Shown: piece by piece, positions 155-21,891 of the stretch
How positions within the stretch are numbered: position 1 is the first letter of the stretch
Layout: each line of letters opens with the position of its first letter
Source of the DNA: a virus
Virus record (IMG/VR): IMGVR_UViG_3300010883_000407
Span: 1 to 25,522 of that record
DNA length: 25,522 bases
Direction: 5' to 3' (one strand)
Notes under the pieces: generated by a model
The model's database searches: none
The model's input: only the letters and a program-made list of their open reading frames with translations
Told to the model about the DNA's origin: nothing
Program-made: the position numbers and the translations under genes

Positions 155-493
155 TTATTTTTTTGAAATTAATCCTTCAAGGAAGTATTTAAGTGTGTCC
201 TCAGGTAAGGCACCTGGTTGAGAAAATACATCACCACTCTTTGAAATTGTAGTTGTGTTAGGAACACTCATTACTCTAAATAAACCAGCTATTTCAGGTT
301 CTTCTTCTATGTTTACTTTATATAAACTTACTTTATCTTTATATTCTGGTGTAACTTTGTTGAGCACCTGCTCATACATTTTACAAGGTCCTCACCAAGT
401 TGCATAAAAATCTATGAATATAGGTTTATCTGTAAGATTTTCACCTTCATTATAAATTTTCATAAATTCTGATTTTGTTAAATTATTAATCAC
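155..493 (-). CDS. Thioredoxin with in-frame TGA at the first active-site Cys (candidate selenoprotein)
   Basis: A thiol-disulfide oxidoreductase of thioredoxin fold and normal length (112 residues from the GTG at 493). The frame reads DFYATW-TGA-GPCK, so the first Cys of the usual WCGPCK motif (residue 34) is a TGA codon at 392-394, while the resolving Cys37 is kept. The cis-Pro loop SVP ends at Pro78, 44 residues after residue 34, the same spacing as Cys32-Pro76 of E. coli thioredoxin. Coding character is good on both sides of the TGA, which argues against a decayed gene. A hairpin resembling a bacterial SECIS follows. The GTG start overlaps the upstream stop (GTGATTAA) and has GGAG 3 bases before it; an ATG at 502 and one at 463 are alternatives. 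A standard gene caller would report only 155-379. The alternatives are a nonsense mutation or a sequence error. Confidence 0.8.
358..378 (-). promoter_or_regulatory. Candidate bacterial SECIS hairpin after the thioredoxin TGA
   Basis: On the minus strand, starting 13 bases after the TGA, the sequence folds as UGU-(bulged A)-UGAGC-AGGU-GCUCA-ACA. This gives a 5 bp stem with a four-base AGGU loop, extended by 3 bp beyond a bulge. The loop begins 22 bases after the UGA. Known bacterial SECIS elements lie just downstream of the UGA inside the coding sequence, with a short stem and a G early in the apical loop; the E. coli fdhF element has an AGGU-containing loop and a bulge in its stem. The match in position, bulge and loop is seen by eye only; no folding energy was computed. 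Confidence 0.6.
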
Positions 494-905
494 AATCTCC
501 ATCGTGTTCACAATCACAATTACAACCACAATGTTTTTTCCATTTACCTACTGGACATTCAGCTATAGCATAATGTACTTTCACATTCATGAAACAAGCA
601 CAATGAGAACATCTACCATCTTTTTTATTTGTATCTGGATTTGTTTGGTCGTATAAAAGAAACTCACAACCTTTACAGATTTCCCATCTTCTTTCTGCTT
701 CTTCTTGTGTTGTGATTGTTTGAGAACCTTTTAACCAAGACTTTAAAGACTTCCAATGAATTGTAGCTATATCTCTTATCTGTTGAGATGCTGGTGGAAG
801 TTTGTGTTCTTCCTTCAACATCTCTTCAGTTTTTTCAATACATTCTAGTTCTTCTTCAGTTGCCTCTCTGTCTTTTGTGACTTTTGGCTTGAAGTTAAAA
901 CTCAC
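486..905 (-). CDS. Cys-rich metal-binding-type protein
   Basis: A 139-residue acidic protein of unknown function. The N-terminal 70 residues are charged and helical in character. The core has paired cysteines: C77-x2-C80, C99-x2-C102-x-C104, then a CPVGKW segment with C117, an arrangement typical of zinc-ribbon or metal-cluster modules in small phage proteins. The last 14 residues add five more cysteines alternating with Gly, Asn, Asp and His, which looks metal-binding or redox-active. The start is GTG at 905, with AGGAG 11 bases upstream. It sits 3 bases after the CGFC thioredoxin-like gene and overlaps the TGA-containing thioredoxin gene, so the three are likely cotranscribed and may share a thiol or metal role. 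That role is inference. The real family could not be named from sequence alone. Confidence 0.75.
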   Translation of the reverse strand: MSFNFKPKVTKDREATEEELECIEKTEEMLKEEHKLPPASQQIRDIATIHWKSLKSWLKGSQTITTQEEAERRWEICKGCEFLLYDQTNPDTNKKDGRCSHCACFMNVKVHYAIAECPVGKWKKHCGCNCDCEHDGDCD

Positions 906-908
906 CTA

Positions 909-1697
909 TTATTTCACTCCTAAGTGTTTAATAAGTTTATCTACTTTTTGTTCAAGTCTTTGTATTCTGGCTTTATCATCTGCTGCTAAACTACCACCAG
1001 GCTGAGCTGCCTGTTGTTGTTGCATCTGTTGTCTCTGACCCTTCATTCTCTCTATAATTTGATCAGATTTTTGTAAGTTAGGTAGGTGATCATTTTCTTC
1101 TGCCCACTTTTCATATTCCTTACCCCACTCTTCAAGTTGTTTATCTGTTGCAGTTGGTGCTGGTGGCCTAGGAGGTTCTGATTTTGGTCTAGGTCTTTCA
1201 AGAATTGTATCTACAGATTGTGTATTAGGAAGGTGTGAATTTTCATCCAACCATTTCTGATACTCTTTTTTCCACTTTTCAACTTCTTTTTCTTCAGCAC
1301 CTTGAAATGGAGGTCTTGGAGGTGGACTTTTTGGTCTTGGTGGAGCTGGTATATCTTCACCATTAACCCATTTTAATATGTCACCTTTTTCTCGAAAACC
1401 ACATACTTGATTTCCAGTTTCACCATCTATAAACCATGGTGTACCACATTGTTTATTATATTTTTTTGAAATTTCGTCTTTTAATCCTCGATTATCTGGT
1501 TCTGCTAAATCAAGTTTTAATATATCGTGGCCTTCTTTTATTAATTCATCGACTATTGGTTCAGCTTTTTTGCAAAAACCACAACCTACTGTATAAAAAT
1601 AATATAAAGTGGATTCTTTTGTTTTTGGGGGTGATGTTTTTGATTTAGTTTCTTTTTTAACTTCTTCAAAAACTTCTTTTTCTTTTGTATCGGTCAT
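909..1697 (-). CDS. Thioredoxin-like protein (CGFC) with Pro-rich tandem repeats
   Basis: A 262-residue protein. After a Lys/Glu-rich start, residues 31-112 form a thioredoxin/glutaredoxin-like domain: YYFYTVGCGFCKK carries the redox pair C39 and C42, and CGTPWFIDGETG near 84-95 holds the Thr-Pro expected for the cis-Pro loop, followed by CGF and a terminal helix. Residues 121-167 and 170-216 are two copies of a 47-residue unit with a PPRPP stretch, a Trp/Lys/Glu helix and an HLPN turn. A Gln-rich linker and a C-terminal coiled-coil-like segment follow. The redox activity is a family inference; the tail may tether the domain to another phage protein. The start has GGAG upstream and a promoter-like motif at 1727-1741, so this gene probably heads the redox operon. 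No signal peptide is visible, so it likely acts in the cytoplasm or in the virion. Confidence 0.8.
   Translation of the reverse strand: MTDTKEKEVFEEVKKETKSKTSPPKTKESTLYYFYTVGCGFCKKAEPIVDELIKEGHDILKLDLAEPDNRGLKDEISKKYNKQCGTPWFIDGETGNQVCGFREKGDILKWVNGEDIPAPPRPKSPPPRPPFQGAEEKEVEKWKKEYQKWLDENSHLPNTQSVDTILERPRPKSEPPRPPAPTATDKQLEEWGKEYEKWAEENDHLPNLQKSDQIIERMKGQRQQMQQQQAAQPGGSLAADDKARIQRLEQKVDKLIKHLGVK
1050..1337 (-). repeat. Tandem 47-codon repeat inside the CGFC thioredoxin-like gene
   Basis: Two adjacent coding units (1197-1337 and 1050-1190) encode the same pattern: RPKS-PPRPP, a linker, an EKW/EEW-KEY-KW helix, a DxxHLPN-type turn and an I-(L/I)-E end. They are separated by two codons. This points to an internal duplication, with the second copy diverged mainly in the linker. 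Confidence 0.8.
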
Positions 1698-3898: not shown

Positions 3899-5215
3899 TT
3901 ATAACCTCGTAGTAATATCTTTCATATTACCATAATTAAATCCCATTTGGGATTTTGTAAAATGTCTGTCCTCTTCTAAGATATCTTTAATTTCTTTCAA
4001 AGTTTCTACTCCGTCTTGTTTTGAATAGTCAAATAGGAAACTATCATAACCATAAAGGACTAATTTTGTCTTCTTATCTAATAAATATTCTTGAATTAAT
4101 AAAATCTTCCTAATATTTGATTCTGTTTCATATGCTTGAATCAAATAGTTAAATAGTTTATTTCTATTCAAATCCTCATAATTATTAAATAATAGTTTCC
4201 TTTTATAAATATCTGTGTAAACACAATTATGTGTATTTATTTCATTCCATTTTTTATTGATATATTTATGTGTTAAATCAAAAAATGGTACTTTTTCTCG
4301 TGTTTCTTTATCAATTCCACCATATAATAATCTAAATGTTTTGGCTTTTGATTCATCATATGTACAAACATAATACTCTGCAAGATGTGCATGTACAGAA
4401 GTTTCATGAAATTCTTTGTAACCTACCAAATCTGCAATTAATCTTAAATGATATGCATCAAAGTCAAACTCTACAAGATAATCATTTTCAGGTATGAATG
4501 CTTTTTTCTTTTCAGGTGTTAGAGCTGCAAAATTAACAGTTCCAAATGCATTAGATGGTCTACCTGTTGTTGTAGTTAGATTGAATTTACCATATAATTT
4601 ACCATCTGATATATGTTTCTTTACTCTTAAATCAAATATATCACATACATCATCTGATACCTTTACACCATTCTTTTCTATATTGTAGAAAGCTTGTATT
4701 GTATTGAGTGCACCATTATTCTCAAACCAACCTTCATCATTAATAAGTGGATTTAAATCTCTTTTTACCCACTCTAATATCTTATCTGATACCTCGTCAC
4801 AATACTCTTTATGTTTGATAATTGGTACTATTTCGTTAAGCTTTTTAACATTGTAGAACTTATTACTCAAGAAGTCTATTGCATTATTACGAACTTCCAA
4901 GTCCAATGGTTTTCCATGTAACCACCAATGTCCTATACTTACATCAAAAATCTTTCTATATTCAGGTAATATTGGTAATAGTTTTTTAGCATCTGGTGTA
5001 AGAACAAGTTGGTCATCATTCATTAAGAATGAATAATCAACCATATATTCTTTTGAATCTGGATGTAATTGAGGTAATATATAACTCTTTGAGGCATCCC
5101 AATTATCCACATCGTTTCCATGAACTTCCCTAACATAAAGTAAAGATAACTTATTATTCTTATGTTGTGGATGTAAGAATGGGTCTGAATATATGGGTAT
5201 AACAATATAAATCAT
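3899..5215 (-). CDS. Short family A DNA polymerase (palm/fingers only)
   Basis: A 438-residue DNA polymerase I-like protein. Visible motifs in order: TTGRPS at 216-221 (the TGR of family A); motif A EFDFDAYHLRLIA with metal-binding D251; motif B ESKAKTFRLLYGG with K290, F294, Y298 and G299; NYLIQ with N356 and Q360; motif C LYGYDSFLFD with D391. Both catalytic Asp positions are kept. The usual steric-gate Glu of motif A is His256, the Arg four residues before K290 is Tyr, and the HDE of motif C reads YDS. The first 200 residues show no clear 3'-5' exonuclease motif. T4 itself uses a family B polymerase, so this enzyme may have a repair or special replication role. It is the first non-structural gene after the baseplate genes. 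Its upstream leader has an AT-rich stretch but weak ribosome binding. Confidence 0.85.
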   Translation of the reverse strand: MIYIVIPIYSDPFLHPQHKNNKLSLLYVREVHGNDVDNWDASKSYILPQLHPDSKEYMVDYSFLMNDDQLVLTPDAKKLLPILPEYRKIFDVSIGHWWLHGKPLDLEVRNNAIDFLSNKFYNVKKLNEIVPIIKHKEYCDEVSDKILEWVKRDLNPLINDEGWFENNGALNTIQAFYNIEKNGVKVSDDVCDIFDLRVKKHISDGKLYGKFNLTTTTGRPSNAFGTVNFAALTPEKKKAFIPENDYLVEFDFDAYHLRLIADLVGYKEFHETSVHAHLAEYYVCTYDESKAKTFRLLYGGIDKETREKVPFFDLTHKYINKKWNEINTHNCVYTDIYKRKLLFNNYEDLNRNKLFNYLIQAYETESNIRKILLIQEYLLDKKTKLVLYGYDSFLFDYSKQDGVETLKEIKDILEEDRHFTKSQMGFNYGNMKDITTRL

Positions 5216-17722: not shown

Positions 17723-19924
17723 CTACCCTTCAAAGGAAGCTCCACTTGGTTGAACTGTAAAGTCTAATATAATAAACTCAGCAGTTTTTGTTGGTTGAAC
17801 AAATATCTGACCATATAATATGTTTCTATCAACTACATCTGCAGTGTTATTTGTTTCATCCATAACTACTCTAAAAGCGTTTAATCCACTCTGTGATTGT
17901 ACTTGTTCCAAGAATGGATTTGCTATTTGTAAAAATCTTCTTCTTGTTTGAGCATTATTTTGTTCAAATACTAAGAAACGAGATGAAGAAGCAATAAACT
18001 TCTTAACTTTAATTAATAGTCGTCTTACATTAACTCTATCGAGAGCCGAAGCTTTCTTCTGTAATGTTTTCTGACCCCAAACAGTTACTCCCTCACCTGG
18101 GAATGTAGCTATTGGATTCACACCTGCAGAATATAAATCGTCTCTATTTGTTATAGTCAGTTTTCTTTCTGCCTGTACAACAGTATCTAAAGTTCCTCTA
18201 TTTAAACCAGCTGGTGCAAACCATTCGTGAGCTACTTTATCATTGAATGCTATTGAACTAATTACTCCAACTGAAGGTGGTGCCCATACATTTTTACCTA
18301 GTTGTTGTTCACGAACTTGTACCCATGGCCAGTAAGTAGCTGCGTAACTAGAATCTCTAGTTTTTGCCTCTGTAGTTGCCTGTGTCAATGCACTTCCGTG
18401 TGGAACTGGGTCTAAAAGAACTAAACAATCACCTCTTCTTTCACACATATCAATTGCCTTTGCAGTTATTGAACTATGTATTGATCCGATTGCTCCTGGC
18501 ATCATAAGTAAATTAAGGTCATATTCATCTTGATTTCCTAATAAGTCTAATGCATCTACATATTGATTATATCCTTTATTTGCACCATCATTACTTATAT
18601 CCAATCCTTGATTATTATTTTCCTCTATATTTTCATAAAATACTTTTGGATCTTGAACAGTTCCATCAGAACCACCACTAAATGAACCTCCGAATGAACC
18701 ACTACCAAGTCCAGGTAAAGAAGCAGTAAGATTTGCATCTCTAATATTTCCATTCTGGTCAAGGTAATCTGTAACTTCTTTCCTAACATCGACTCTTACA
18801 TATTTTGATTTAGGTGGATATGTACCTACATATGATAAATATGGATCACCAGCACCACCAGCATTTTGTATAGACTGATAAGAATCACCCATAACTTTTG
18901 CAACATAGTTGGTTGCCTGTGAATCTAGTGATACATTGTTCCAAGTTTCAAGAACTTGTTTTCTTTTGAAAGTATCATTACCAGCTCTGATTTCAAGTGT
19001 GAATGTACCTTTATTTTTATTTGTTTGTGTAATTTCCCATTTTAAATTATCTTTTGAACCAGATGTCAATATTCCATTATTACCTACTGGTACAGATATA
19101 CCACCATGAAAGGTAGATGCACTAAGTTGACCACTAGTAGCACCAGTTACAGTTGTATCATTATTACCATCAACTCCCTGTGTTACTTGTGTTAAACTTA
19201 ATATCAAACCCGTACCATCTTGAGTAGCTGTAATCTTTCCACCATGATTATTAGAATGTTCGATAGCAGCCTCTAAAGAATCAACCTGTGTTGTTGTAGT
19301 ATTAGAAGCGTGTACTTTCGCGTCCGATGCATCTTCATTTCCTGCACTAACCCAAGTATATGTTTTTGATGTACCATCTGTGGATACAAGTACAAGAGTA
19401 TCTCCAATTTCAGGTCTATCACCTGCAAAGAATTTTAGTGATGCAGTTGCTGCATTTGAACCTACTCCAAGTTCAACTTGATTATTCATCACATCTCCAT
19501 CTGCTAAAGTATGAAGTTTGAATGATATATTACCAACATTTTCATCGTCACCTGGTCTAGCACTACCTGTGTGAAATGATAGGTGTCCTGCATTACTACC
19601 AGTTAAGACATTTGCAGTCGCACCACTATAACTTCCTGCTAGTATTCTAACAACAGTTAATTTGTCTGCATTTTTTAGATAATTTTTTGCAGCTAGTGAA
19701 GTTAGATATGTGTACATACCTGCTCCATCTCCACTACCACTTTTGAAGGTATCACCAAATCTAGCTTGATATTCAGAGTATGAAGTAACTACAGTTGGTA
19801 CTAATACAGGTCCTTTAACAGTCGGACCTATAATTGCTGCACCTATGTCTGCAATTGCTGCGGGTAAAAACGATTGATCTATCTCTTTAGTAAAGACTCC
19901 TGGGCTTACAATTTTTTCAGCCAA
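17723..19924 (-). CDS. Tail sheath protein, second paralog, with inserted domain (gp18-like)
   Basis: A 733-residue contractile sheath protein. The N-terminal 100 residues (SPGVFTKEIDQ, then LVPTVVTSYSEY) and the C-terminal 270 residues (SALDRVNVRRLLIKVKKFIA and QTRRRFL) are nearly the same as in the upstream paralog; both are sheath hallmarks, and the C-terminus forms the conserved core that holds the sheath lattice. Residues 158-275 carry an extra strand-rich module (DGTSKTYTW near 183-191, then a HSNNHGGKITAT turn and a SLTQVTQGVDGNN segment) not present in the paralog. It resembles a surface-exposed beta domain seen in other phage structural proteins. It starts 14 bases after the first sheath stop, so the two are cotranscribed. 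Different sheath copies may be used in different parts of the tail or at different times. Confidence 0.9.
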   Translation of the reverse strand: MAEKIVSPGVFTKEIDQSFLPAAIADIGAAIIGPTVKGPVLVPTVVTSYSEYQARFGDTFKSGSGDGAGMYTYLTSLAAKNYLKNADKLTVVRILAGSYSGATANVLTGSNAGHLSFHTGSARPGDDENVGNISFKLHTLADGDVMNNQVELGVGSNAATASLKFFAGDRPEIGDTLVLVSTDGTSKTYTWVSAGNEDASDAKVHASNTTTTQVDSLEAAIEHSNNHGGKITATQDGTGLILSLTQVTQGVDGNNDTTVTGATSGQLSASTFHGGISVPVGNNGILTSGSKDNLKWEITQTNKNKGTFTLEIRAGNDTFKRKQVLETWNNVSLDSQATNYVAKVMGDSYQSIQNAGGAGDPYLSYVGTYPPKSKYVRVDVRKEVTDYLDQNGNIRDANLTASLPGLGSGSFGGSFSGGSDGTVQDPKVFYENIEENNNQGLDISNDGANKGYNQYVDALDLLGNQDEYDLNLLMMPGAIGSIHSSITAKAIDMCERRGDCLVLLDPVPHGSALTQATTEAKTRDSSYAATYWPWVQVREQQLGKNVWAPPSVGVISSIAFNDKVAHEWFAPAGLNRGTLDTVVQAERKLTITNRDDLYSAGVNPIATFPGEGVTVWGQKTLQKKASALDRVNVRRLLIKVKKFIASSSRFLVFEQNNAQTRRRFLQIANPFLEQVQSQSGLNAFRVVMDETNNTADVVDRNILYGQIFVQPTKTAEFIILDFTVQPSGASFEG

Positions 19925-19938
19925 TTAATTTCTCCGTA

Positions 19939-21891
19939 TTATTCTGGGAATGTAGCACCAGAAGGTTGAATTGTGAAATCTAATACAATAAACTCAGCAG
20001 TTTTTGTAGGTTGTAAGAAAATTTGTCCATAAAGGATGTTTCTATCAACCACATCTGGAGTATTATTTGTATCATCCATAATCACTCTAAATGCATTCAA
20101 ACCACTTTGTGATTGAACCTGTTCTAAGAACGGATTAACAATCGTTAAGAACCTTCTTCGTGTCTGTGCGTTATTCTGTTCAAATACCAAGAATCTTGAA
20201 GAACTTGCAATAAACTTCTTAACTTTAATTAATAATCTACGAACATTAATTCTATCAAGAGCCGAAGCTTTTTTCTGTAGTGTCTTTTGGCCAAATACTG
20301 TAACTCCTTGTCCAGGAAATGTTGCAATTGGATTGACATTTGATTCATACAAATCGTCACGATTTGATTGTGTTAATTTTCTTTCAGCTTGAACTGCTGT
20401 ATCTATACCACCACGATTCAAACCTGCTGGTGCAAACCATGGATGAGCTACTTTATCATTAAATGCATATATTCCACCTAGAGCTACTGAAGGTGGCACC
20501 CAAACATTCTTACCCAATGCAGGTTCTGGTATTTGTATCCATGGCCAGTAAGTAGCTGCGTAATTGGATTCGTGACCTTCTGCTTGGTCCTTAACTGTAG
20601 TAATATTACTTCCATATACAACTGGATCCAAGAGAACAAAACAATCTCCTCTATTTTCACAAACATCTATTGCTTTCTGACCTACTGCACTATGACTCTT
20701 ATCGATTATACCAGGTAATATAAGTAAATTAATATCATATTCATCTTGATTTGATAAAAGATTAAGTGCTTTTGTATAAGCTGTTTTACCTTGATCAGCT
20801 ACCCCTGGATTTAAACCTTGACTATTAGTACCTATATTATTAAACCATTCAAATTCTGGAGTTGTATCTGTTCCTTGAGGACCTCCAGCAGAATTAAATC
20901 CAATAAATCCATCTGTTCCACCAACGAATGAACCACTATTTGGTCCTGGAAGAGATGCAGAAGCTGCACTAGATCTAATAGTACCATTTTCATCAAGATA
21001 ATCTACAGTTTGTTTTAGTACCTCAACCCTTACATATTTTGACTTTGGTGGATAAGTACCAGTAAAAGTTATATATGGTTCTGATTCTGTTCCTCCAATT
21101 GAATTATATGAATCACCAACAACTTTTGCTATATAATTATTTGAATTTGGATCTAAATTAACATTATTCCAAGTTTCCATAACTTGTTTTCTTTTTAAGG
21201 TATCATTACCAGACCTAATAAGAAGTGTAAATGATCCCTTTGCTTTATTTATATTTGATATTTCCCATCTGATATTATGTTTTGAACCTGACTCTACGAT
21301 ATTTCCATATATTCCAAGAGGACTTATACTTTCGTAATGATCTGTCATCCAATTACCTCCTGGATGACCACCTCTACTAGCACTTCCATTATTCATTATA
21401 GAACCATCAGCTAATGTATGTAATTTAAGACAAGAAGCTGCAAGTTCATACTTTGTGTCAGTTGAACTACCAGAATAATGACCAGCAGTACCTTCGTCTC
21501 CATGATTTGTTTCTAATCCAGAACCATAAATAGCGGCTCCACTTCCACTAAATGTACCTTGAACATAAGCATTACTTCCTGTTGGAACGAAAGAATGGGC
21601 CCCTCCATATGTTCCATCAAGGATTCTAACTACAGTTAAAACATTTGAATGTTTTAAATAATTTCTTGCTGCTAGTGATGTTAAATAAGTTTGATATGCA
21701 CTACCACTTTTAAATTCGTTACCAAAAATTTGTTCAAATTCTGAAAATGATGTGACTACTGTAGGGACTAAAGCTGGACCTTTCATTGTTGGTCCTACAA
21801 TTGCAGCCCCTATATCTGCGATTGCTGCTGGTAAAAATGATTGATCTATTTCGTCTGTAAAGACTCCTGGGGAAACTACTTTTTCGGCCAT
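19939..21891 (-). CDS. Tail sheath protein, first paralog (gp18-like)
   Basis: A 650-residue sheath protein close to the T4 gp18 length (659). It has the sheath start SPGVFTDEIDQSFLPAAIAD, LVPTVVTSFSEFEQIFG, the central KSKYVRVEV region and the C-terminal core with RRRFLTIVNPFLEQVQSQSG, NAFRVIMDDTNNT and ILYGQIFLQPTKTAEFIVLDF. The region after KLHTLADGSIMNN is short and Gly-rich where the paralog carries its insert. AGGAG precedes the ATG. The long leader with a hairpin and promoter-like motif suggests strong, possibly stabilised, late expression. Confidence 0.92.
   Translation of the reverse strand: MAEKVVSPGVFTDEIDQSFLPAAIADIGAAIVGPTMKGPALVPTVVTSFSEFEQIFGNEFKSGSAYQTYLTSLAARNYLKHSNVLTVVRILDGTYGGAHSFVPTGSNAYVQGTFSGSGAAIYGSGLETNHGDEGTAGHYSGSSTDTKYELAASCLKLHTLADGSIMNNGSASRGGHPGGNWMTDHYESISPLGIYGNIVESGSKHNIRWEISNINKAKGSFTLLIRSGNDTLKRKQVMETWNNVNLDPNSNNYIAKVVGDSYNSIGGTESEPYITFTGTYPPKSKYVRVEVLKQTVDYLDENGTIRSSAASASLPGPNSGSFVGGTDGFIGFNSAGGPQGTDTTPEFEWFNNIGTNSQGLNPGVADQGKTAYTKALNLLSNQDEYDINLLILPGIIDKSHSAVGQKAIDVCENRGDCFVLLDPVVYGSNITTVKDQAEGHESNYAATYWPWIQIPEPALGKNVWVPPSVALGGIYAFNDKVAHPWFAPAGLNRGGIDTAVQAERKLTQSNRDDLYESNVNPIATFPGQGVTVFGQKTLQKKASALDRINVRRLLIKVKKFIASSSRFLVFEQNNAQTRRRFLTIVNPFLEQVQSQSGLNAFRVIMDDTNNTPDVVDRNILYGQIFLQPTKTAEFIVLDFTIQPSGATFPE

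Follow-up and report, generated by a model that had tools for sequence, protein, structure and literature searches.

The window analysed here, a 25,522-nucleotide stretch of viral DNA (IMG/VR virus record IMGVR_UViG_3300010883_000407), carries a gene, trxU, that we read with a probability of roughly 0.93 as encoding a phage selenoprotein. Its product would be a UxxC thioredoxin with a UGA codon at the position of the catalytic cysteine, which comparative sequence evidence suggests is decoded as selenocysteine (Sec). The coordinates of the main features are collected in Table 1.

The trxU gene and its surroundings

The start codon of trxU (502-500) overlaps the 3' end of the upstream gene. With TGA written as U, the translation runs MEIVINNLTKSEFMKIYNEGENLTDKPIFIDFYATW-U-GPCKMYEQVLNKV...SVPNTTT...LISKK*, with exactly one TGA (394-392) and the active-site motif FYATW-U-GPCK. 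A preliminary description of this DNA had stated that the frame is intact on both sides of W-TGA-GPCK, and that the TGA lies as far from the cis-proline as the corresponding cysteine does in E. coli thioredoxin. Both points stand: the minus-strand frame from 502 to 155 reads through with a single TGA at 392-394, and U37 is separated from cis-Pro81 by 44 residues, the same distance as between Cys32 and Pro76. The thioredoxin family PF00085 (cut-off 23.5 bits) was matched by the read-through frame at 61.9 bits in a scan of the window, and by the trxU protein at 70.6 bits, above the curated cut-off, which identifies a thioredoxin domain. An AlphaFold2 model of the product (pLDDT 91.9, pTM 0.86), whose top PDB matches include E. 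coli thioredoxin (2trx) and chloroplast thioredoxins, confirms the thioredoxin fold at the level of predicted structure. Thioredoxins of isolate phages are less than 60% identical to the trxU product, and blastn of positions 1-2000 of the window against isolate phages gave no match.

The window carries a T4-like tail block (baseplate hub, tail sheath, tube and head-tail adaptor), and trxU stands at the end of a conserved block with the genes for a Cys-rich protein and a Cys-form thioredoxin-like protein. The longest syntenic relative, G011 (113,475 bp), keeps the gene order of the window throughout the tail block as far as trxU (26-76% identity), and its major head protein, helicase, RecA-like protein, SSB and PhoH mark it as a T4-like phage. 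Two related tail sheath genes stand in tandem in the window (17723-19924 and 19939-21891) and likewise in L303, L358 and L385; G011 has a single copy. Inside the tail/thioredoxin block, a gene on the minus strand (3899-5215) encodes a 438-aa protein, 63% identical in G011, whose weak match to DNA polymerase A (PF00476, 21 bits) is below the cut-off.

Table 1. Positions of the features discussed (window coordinates unless G011 is named)
Feature	Position	Strand	Description
trxU	155..502	minus	thioredoxin ORF, 115 aa, one in-frame TGA read through; ATG 502-500, stop codon 155-157
UGA codon, predicted selenocysteine	392..394	minus	position of thioredoxin nucleophilic Cys32 (W-UGA-G-P-C); TGA in 25/25 distinct family members
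SECIS-like hairpin core	361..374	minus	UGAGC-AGGU-GCUCA; apical loop starts 22 nt after UGA
Extended SECIS-like element	350..385	minus	from folding; outer UGUAA/UUACA pairs, UGU/ACA pairs with bulged A (window member)
139-aa Cys-rich protein	486..905	minus	directly upstream of trxU; conserved neighbour; 75% identical in G011
Second thioredoxin-like protein, Cys form	909..1697	minus	VGCGFCKK motif; trxU neighbour in nearly all family contigs
tRNA-Sec in G011	103633-103727 (G011)		Rfam RF01852 69.4 bits (gathering 47); ARAGORN tRNA-SeC, UCA

Conservation of the UGA codon and of the downstream hairpin

Relatives of trxU were sought in IMG/VR with peptide patterns that exclude the codon itself, which returned 14 loci, 13 of them covering the codon; in all 13, which are independent contigs, it is TGA. 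A degenerate DNA search specific for TGA (A-x-W-TGA-GPC) enlarged the set to 25 distinct TGA sequences drawn from many metagenomes, and no family sequence has TAA or TAG at this place. An initial TGA pattern, with Phe before Trp, gave chance matches only. Median dN/dS values are 0.31 upstream of the TGA and 0.36 downstream, so that purifying selection is similar on either side of the codon.

Two close relatives with a cysteine codon came to light in an alignment-based search, L121 and L123 (TGT in each), and the remoter phage and bacterial thioredoxins that were read also have Cys here; the TGA thus aligns with the first redox cysteine, and the position forms a Cys/Sec pair. Maximum-likelihood analysis placed the 25 TGA sequences in a single clade (90/85); L121 is its sister and L123 comes next. 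Close relatives with TGT or TGC, or a TGA drifting to other stops beside an unconserved hairpin, had been named in the preliminary description as arguments against a selenoprotein. Neither situation was encountered: the codon-blind relatives uniformly have TGA, Cys appears only in the two next-most-distant sequences and then in remoter thioredoxins, and the hairpin is both conserved and covarying. A scan of a genome collection returned remote bacterial Cys thioredoxins only, with no host contig among the matches.

The hairpin had been described as having an AGGU loop 22 nt past the UGA and a longer, bulged form beginning about 13 nt past it, and both forms were recovered. In all 25 members the UGA is followed by a hairpin, and the distance to the start of its apical loop is exactly 22 nt. 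The core spans 5-6 bp, a shortness that counts against the selenoprotein reading, and the outer pairs of the extended element are present in some members only. By plain folding, the 61 nt from the TGA are unremarkable by themselves when set against dinucleotide shuffles (z -1.1); compared with codon-preserving randomisations, the window element reaches z -8.3 (p 0.002). With the latter procedure, TGA members have a mean z of -4.4 versus -0.65 for 22 Cys homologs, the most extreme of which is L121 (z -6.5). In four members (L034, L065, L082 and L110) the hairpin is a different one, UAGUA-GUG-UACUA, and its register is shifted, with the loop still starting at 22 nt; their folding energy is less exceptional (p 0.04-0.11, codon-preserving randomisation) because their amino acids favour the fold.

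Published bSECIS criteria (PMC13188914, Fig. 2) call for a loop of 3-9 nt, an upper stem of at least 4 bp, a G in the first two loop positions, a UGA-to-loop distance of 16-37 nt and an MFE of -7.5 kcal/mol or lower. The window element passes all five, and 21 of the 25 members pass, as compared to 8% of synonymous randomisations and 3/22 Cys homologs; the latter mostly lack the hairpin, with the exception of the nearest sister, L121. An Rfam scan of the first 2 kb of the window returned no family matching the hairpin.

Codon usage and covariation point in the same direction. The hairpin is written in codons that are rare among their synonyms in the window phage (GAG 0.16, CAG 0.18, GTG 0.064, CTC 0.034), and the series GAG-CAG-GTG-CTC is retained in 18-20 of the 25 members. 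Synonymous identity within trxU is highest in the six codons starting at codon 40, which span most of the 5' half of the hairpin. Two stem pairs show compensatory changes (UA to CG, GC to AU), with 4 double-change cells observed in the stem versus 1.1 in shuffles. Conservation over 25 sequences excludes a chance origin of the hairpin, and the SECIS-like element is under selection.

L121 retains the hairpin as CAAGC-AGGU-GCUUG despite its Cys codon, and L123 is without it. This distribution fits a history in which the phage lineage gained Sec and L121 reverted to Cys; an alternative history, in which the hairpin was gained before the TGA, also fits. Since L121 keeps the hairpin beside a Cys codon, the hairpin alone is no proof of present-day Sec insertion.

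Decoding of the UGA and the tRNA genes of related phages

Alternatively, a suppressor tRNA or a general reassignment could make UGA a sense codon in these phages (for Trp, Gly, Cys or Ser), as in phages with recoded stops. Stop-reassigning phages with suppressor tRNAs are indeed known, and tRNAs with a UCA anticodon and a long variable arm occur in several phages, including the relatives L303, L358 and L385. Moreover, none of 18 genes checked in the window ends in TGA (14 TAA, 4 TAG), an absence that is weak evidence given the preference for TAA. However, TGA terminates 12/112 ORFs in G011, and in the coding frames of the window the trxU TGA is the single in-frame TGA seen, the other long frames having none. 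A read-through scan of 34 family contigs identified trxU as the sense-strand TGA conserved throughout, with no other among the matches listed; on visual inspection, the other conserved TGA cases among these matches were taken to lie antisense to genes. Thus, rather than the many in-frame TGAs and unused TGA stops of a stop-reassigned phage, we find TGA stops in G011 and, among the matches listed, conservation of the trxU TGA alone, which does not support general reassignment. Reassignment would also account neither for the conserved hairpin nor for a UGA at a Cys position, and the tRNA of G011 bears the hallmarks of tRNA-Sec in its stems and discriminator base. We consider this explanation very unlikely.

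By sequence and fold, the G011 gene is a canonical tRNA-Sec, with an 8+5 acceptor/T stem (13 bp), a 6-bp D-stem, a 4-nt D-loop, a long variable arm and discriminator G73. In 395 Bacteroidota genomes, matches to RF01852 reach a maximum of 53.3 bits and are probably tRNA-Ser-like cross-matches, so that the 69.4 bits of G011 lie clearly above background. Both of its flanking genes are syntenic in relatives, an arrangement that speaks against a chimeric assembly; the tRNA gene itself is absent from the same site in the nearest relatives, which counts against the selenoprotein reading.

L303, L358 and L385, whose sheath and tube genes are 58-81% identical to those of the window and which are closer tail-gene relatives than G011, carry a UCA-anticodon tRNA between these two genes (L303:4851-4948, L358:4851-4948, L385:3289-3386). 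With a 7+5 stem, a 6-bp D-stem and 47.6 bits as tRNA-Sec, it may be either a tRNA-Sec, for which a 7+5 stem is known (PMC5330540), or a suppressor. Viral contigs often carry UCA tRNAs with a long variable arm, as in the IMG/VR loci L278-L397, where ARAGORN calls tRNA-SeC for at least 71 (71/120 among the matches listed); by Rfam, many among the matches listed look ordinary or suppressor-like, or lie near the cut-off. Since Bacteroidota tRNAs reach 53.3 bits, we did not accept scores near 47 (L303, L385, L284 and others) as proof. Thioredoxins were present in 5/40 other phages with UCA tRNAs, all of them without TGA.

The hairpin and the UGA might also form a regulatory switch, in which Sec readthrough under selenium-replete conditions controls trxU or an adjacent gene and catalysis is not the point. 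Sec insertion is dependent on the selenium supply, and trxU lies in a tight block and overlaps its upstream gene; nevertheless, the UGA coincides precisely with the catalytic Cys position in a thioredoxin that is intact in every other respect, and Cys is the sole substitution seen there, as a catalytic role predicts, which makes a mere switch highly improbable. A genuine stop or a sequencing error, leaving a broken gene or a short N-terminal peptide and a C-terminal fragment restarted at the ATG of codon 42, is hardly credible: the 25 distinct sequences, which come from many assemblies, share the TGA without a single TAA or TAG, selection is alike on either side, and a restart product would be without the active site.

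In the selenoprotein reading, UGA-392 would be decoded as Sec while the phage infects a Sec-decoding marine bacterium, with SelB and Sec-tRNA-Sec binding the in-frame hairpin 22 nt downstream, as the known bacterial mechanism suggests. The preliminary description had proposed that the phage uses the Sec machinery of its host. For the lineage this is right in part. No sel genes were seen in the window, and no selB in the window or in 14 related or associated records (all possibly fragments); this counts against the selenoprotein reading, under which SelA, SelB and SelD would have to come from the host. The proposal does not extend to the tRNA in G011, which would supply its own tRNA-Sec.

Known systems, host and likely role

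The seleno-thioredoxin would then reduce phage enzymes of nucleotide metabolism. Among the genes of G011, the best-covered relative, are those for an adenosylcobalamin-dependent class II ribonucleotide reductase and for CobS-like and CobT-like proteins. Thioredoxin reduces class II ribonucleotide reductases, and electron supply for dNTP synthesis is thus the most likely role, with the seleno-thioredoxin most likely acting as a fast reductant. In G011 this reductase would be its natural client, and the window phage, of which the contig is a fragment, may encode one too. In L434 (around 300-400), and at the same place in L435, L436 and L439, a conserved hairpin-rich non-coding stretch, TTGAGG..TTGC..CCTCAATAT...GGACAAGGCTT.GGC...GTGGTTGACCA, lies directly upstream of the CobT-like gene; it had no match in Rfam.

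Related phages carry a second redox protein with a TGA, TlpA/ResA-like and with the motif FATW-TGA-GPCQSEAP (L047:8664-9770, plus strand; also L055, L109, L114 and L028). Its C-terminal region resembles Omp28-related selenoproteins (NF045500, 98 bits over residues 158-270, below the whole-protein cut-off), it bears a T9SS sorting tail (PF18962), and in most proteins of this type the TGA is followed by a hairpin of the AUCGGA-GGC-UCCGAU type. In L114 and L028, a CobS-like gene (71-73%) and a lysozyme gene (68-70%) have counterparts in G011. L092, a 115.9-kb contig, has near position 4789 yet another, third kind of thioredoxin, GATW-TGA-GPCKKM, with a downstream hairpin UGAAAC-AGUU-GUUUCA. On balance, we lean towards a marine T4-like phage lineage with a selenium module of its own, comprising the seleno-thioredoxin and a phage-specific SECIS, in some phages a tRNA-Sec that would boost Sec decoding by the host, and in related phages the secreted TlpA-like selenoprotein; such a virus would both depend on and remodel the expanded genetic code of its host.

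Among named phages, the closest are those of Flavobacterium, Microcystis and Rhodothermus (capsid 34-50%), the nearest bacterial thioredoxins, at most 46% identical, belong to Bacteroidota and other FCB groups, and the secreted protein of related phages bears a type IX secretion tail. From these three indications we infer a host in the FCB group. No canonical tRNA-Sec was found with the RF01852 model in the 395 Bacteroidota genomes, which makes a Bacteroidota host unlikely, and another FCB phylum seems more likely. Literature on Marinimicrobia and selenocysteine yielded no usable host evidence. The literature context and our reading of the metagenome set suggest that the phages are marine.

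Sec-containing thioredoxins (UxxC, PF00085) are an established prokaryotic selenoprotein family (PMC13188914), and thioredoxin selenoproteins of marine metagenomes are part of the selenoproteomes of the Sargasso Sea and of GOS (PMC1088965, PMC2398784); some of these might be of such phage origin. Bacterial UxxC thioredoxins resemble trxU as read here in their fold, in having Sec for the first Cys of CxxC and in an in-frame bacterial-type SECIS just downstream, whereas trxU is phage-encoded, lies in a T4-like structural and replication block and has a lineage-specific SECIS element. Cys thioredoxins of phages (PHROG 22) and TrxA of Bacteroidota/FCB, which include the nearest non-family sequences (L121, L123), share the fold but have Cys for Sec and are generally without the SECIS-like hairpin. 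Basilisk-like Bacillus phages are reported to have a tRNA-Sec gene (PMC6145125), a feature they share with G011; the passages that describe it name no selenoprotein gene, while the G011 contig has a canonical tRNA-Sec and the putative selenoprotein gene together. Cellular selenoproteins have been studied extensively, and the viral ones described are the selenium-dependent glutathione peroxidases of a few poxviruses (PMC8310308). Like the predicted trxU product, these are encoded by the virus and rely on the host for decoding, but they are different enzymes, from eukaryotic viruses and with a SECIS of eukaryotic type. In a marine survey of 2021, viral sequences were reported to be scarce or absent except in a few named families (PMC9402790). 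The preliminary description knew of no well-described phage selenoprotein of this kind, and we likewise found no description of a selenoprotein of a bacterial virus in the searchable literature, which covers few subscription journals. The kind of protein is thus already known, and its encoding by a phage would be a new biological setting.

Annotation pipelines normally split such genes in two, and more of them may therefore be hidden. Gain and loss of Sec can be traced directly through L121, which has a residual hairpin next to its Cys codon, and through the deeper Cys form, which has none. The spread of the family across many metagenomes would mean that phages carry genes readable only by a Sec-decoding host, and a Sec-dependent gene would limit host range, in a testable manner, and tie phage replication to the supply of selenium.
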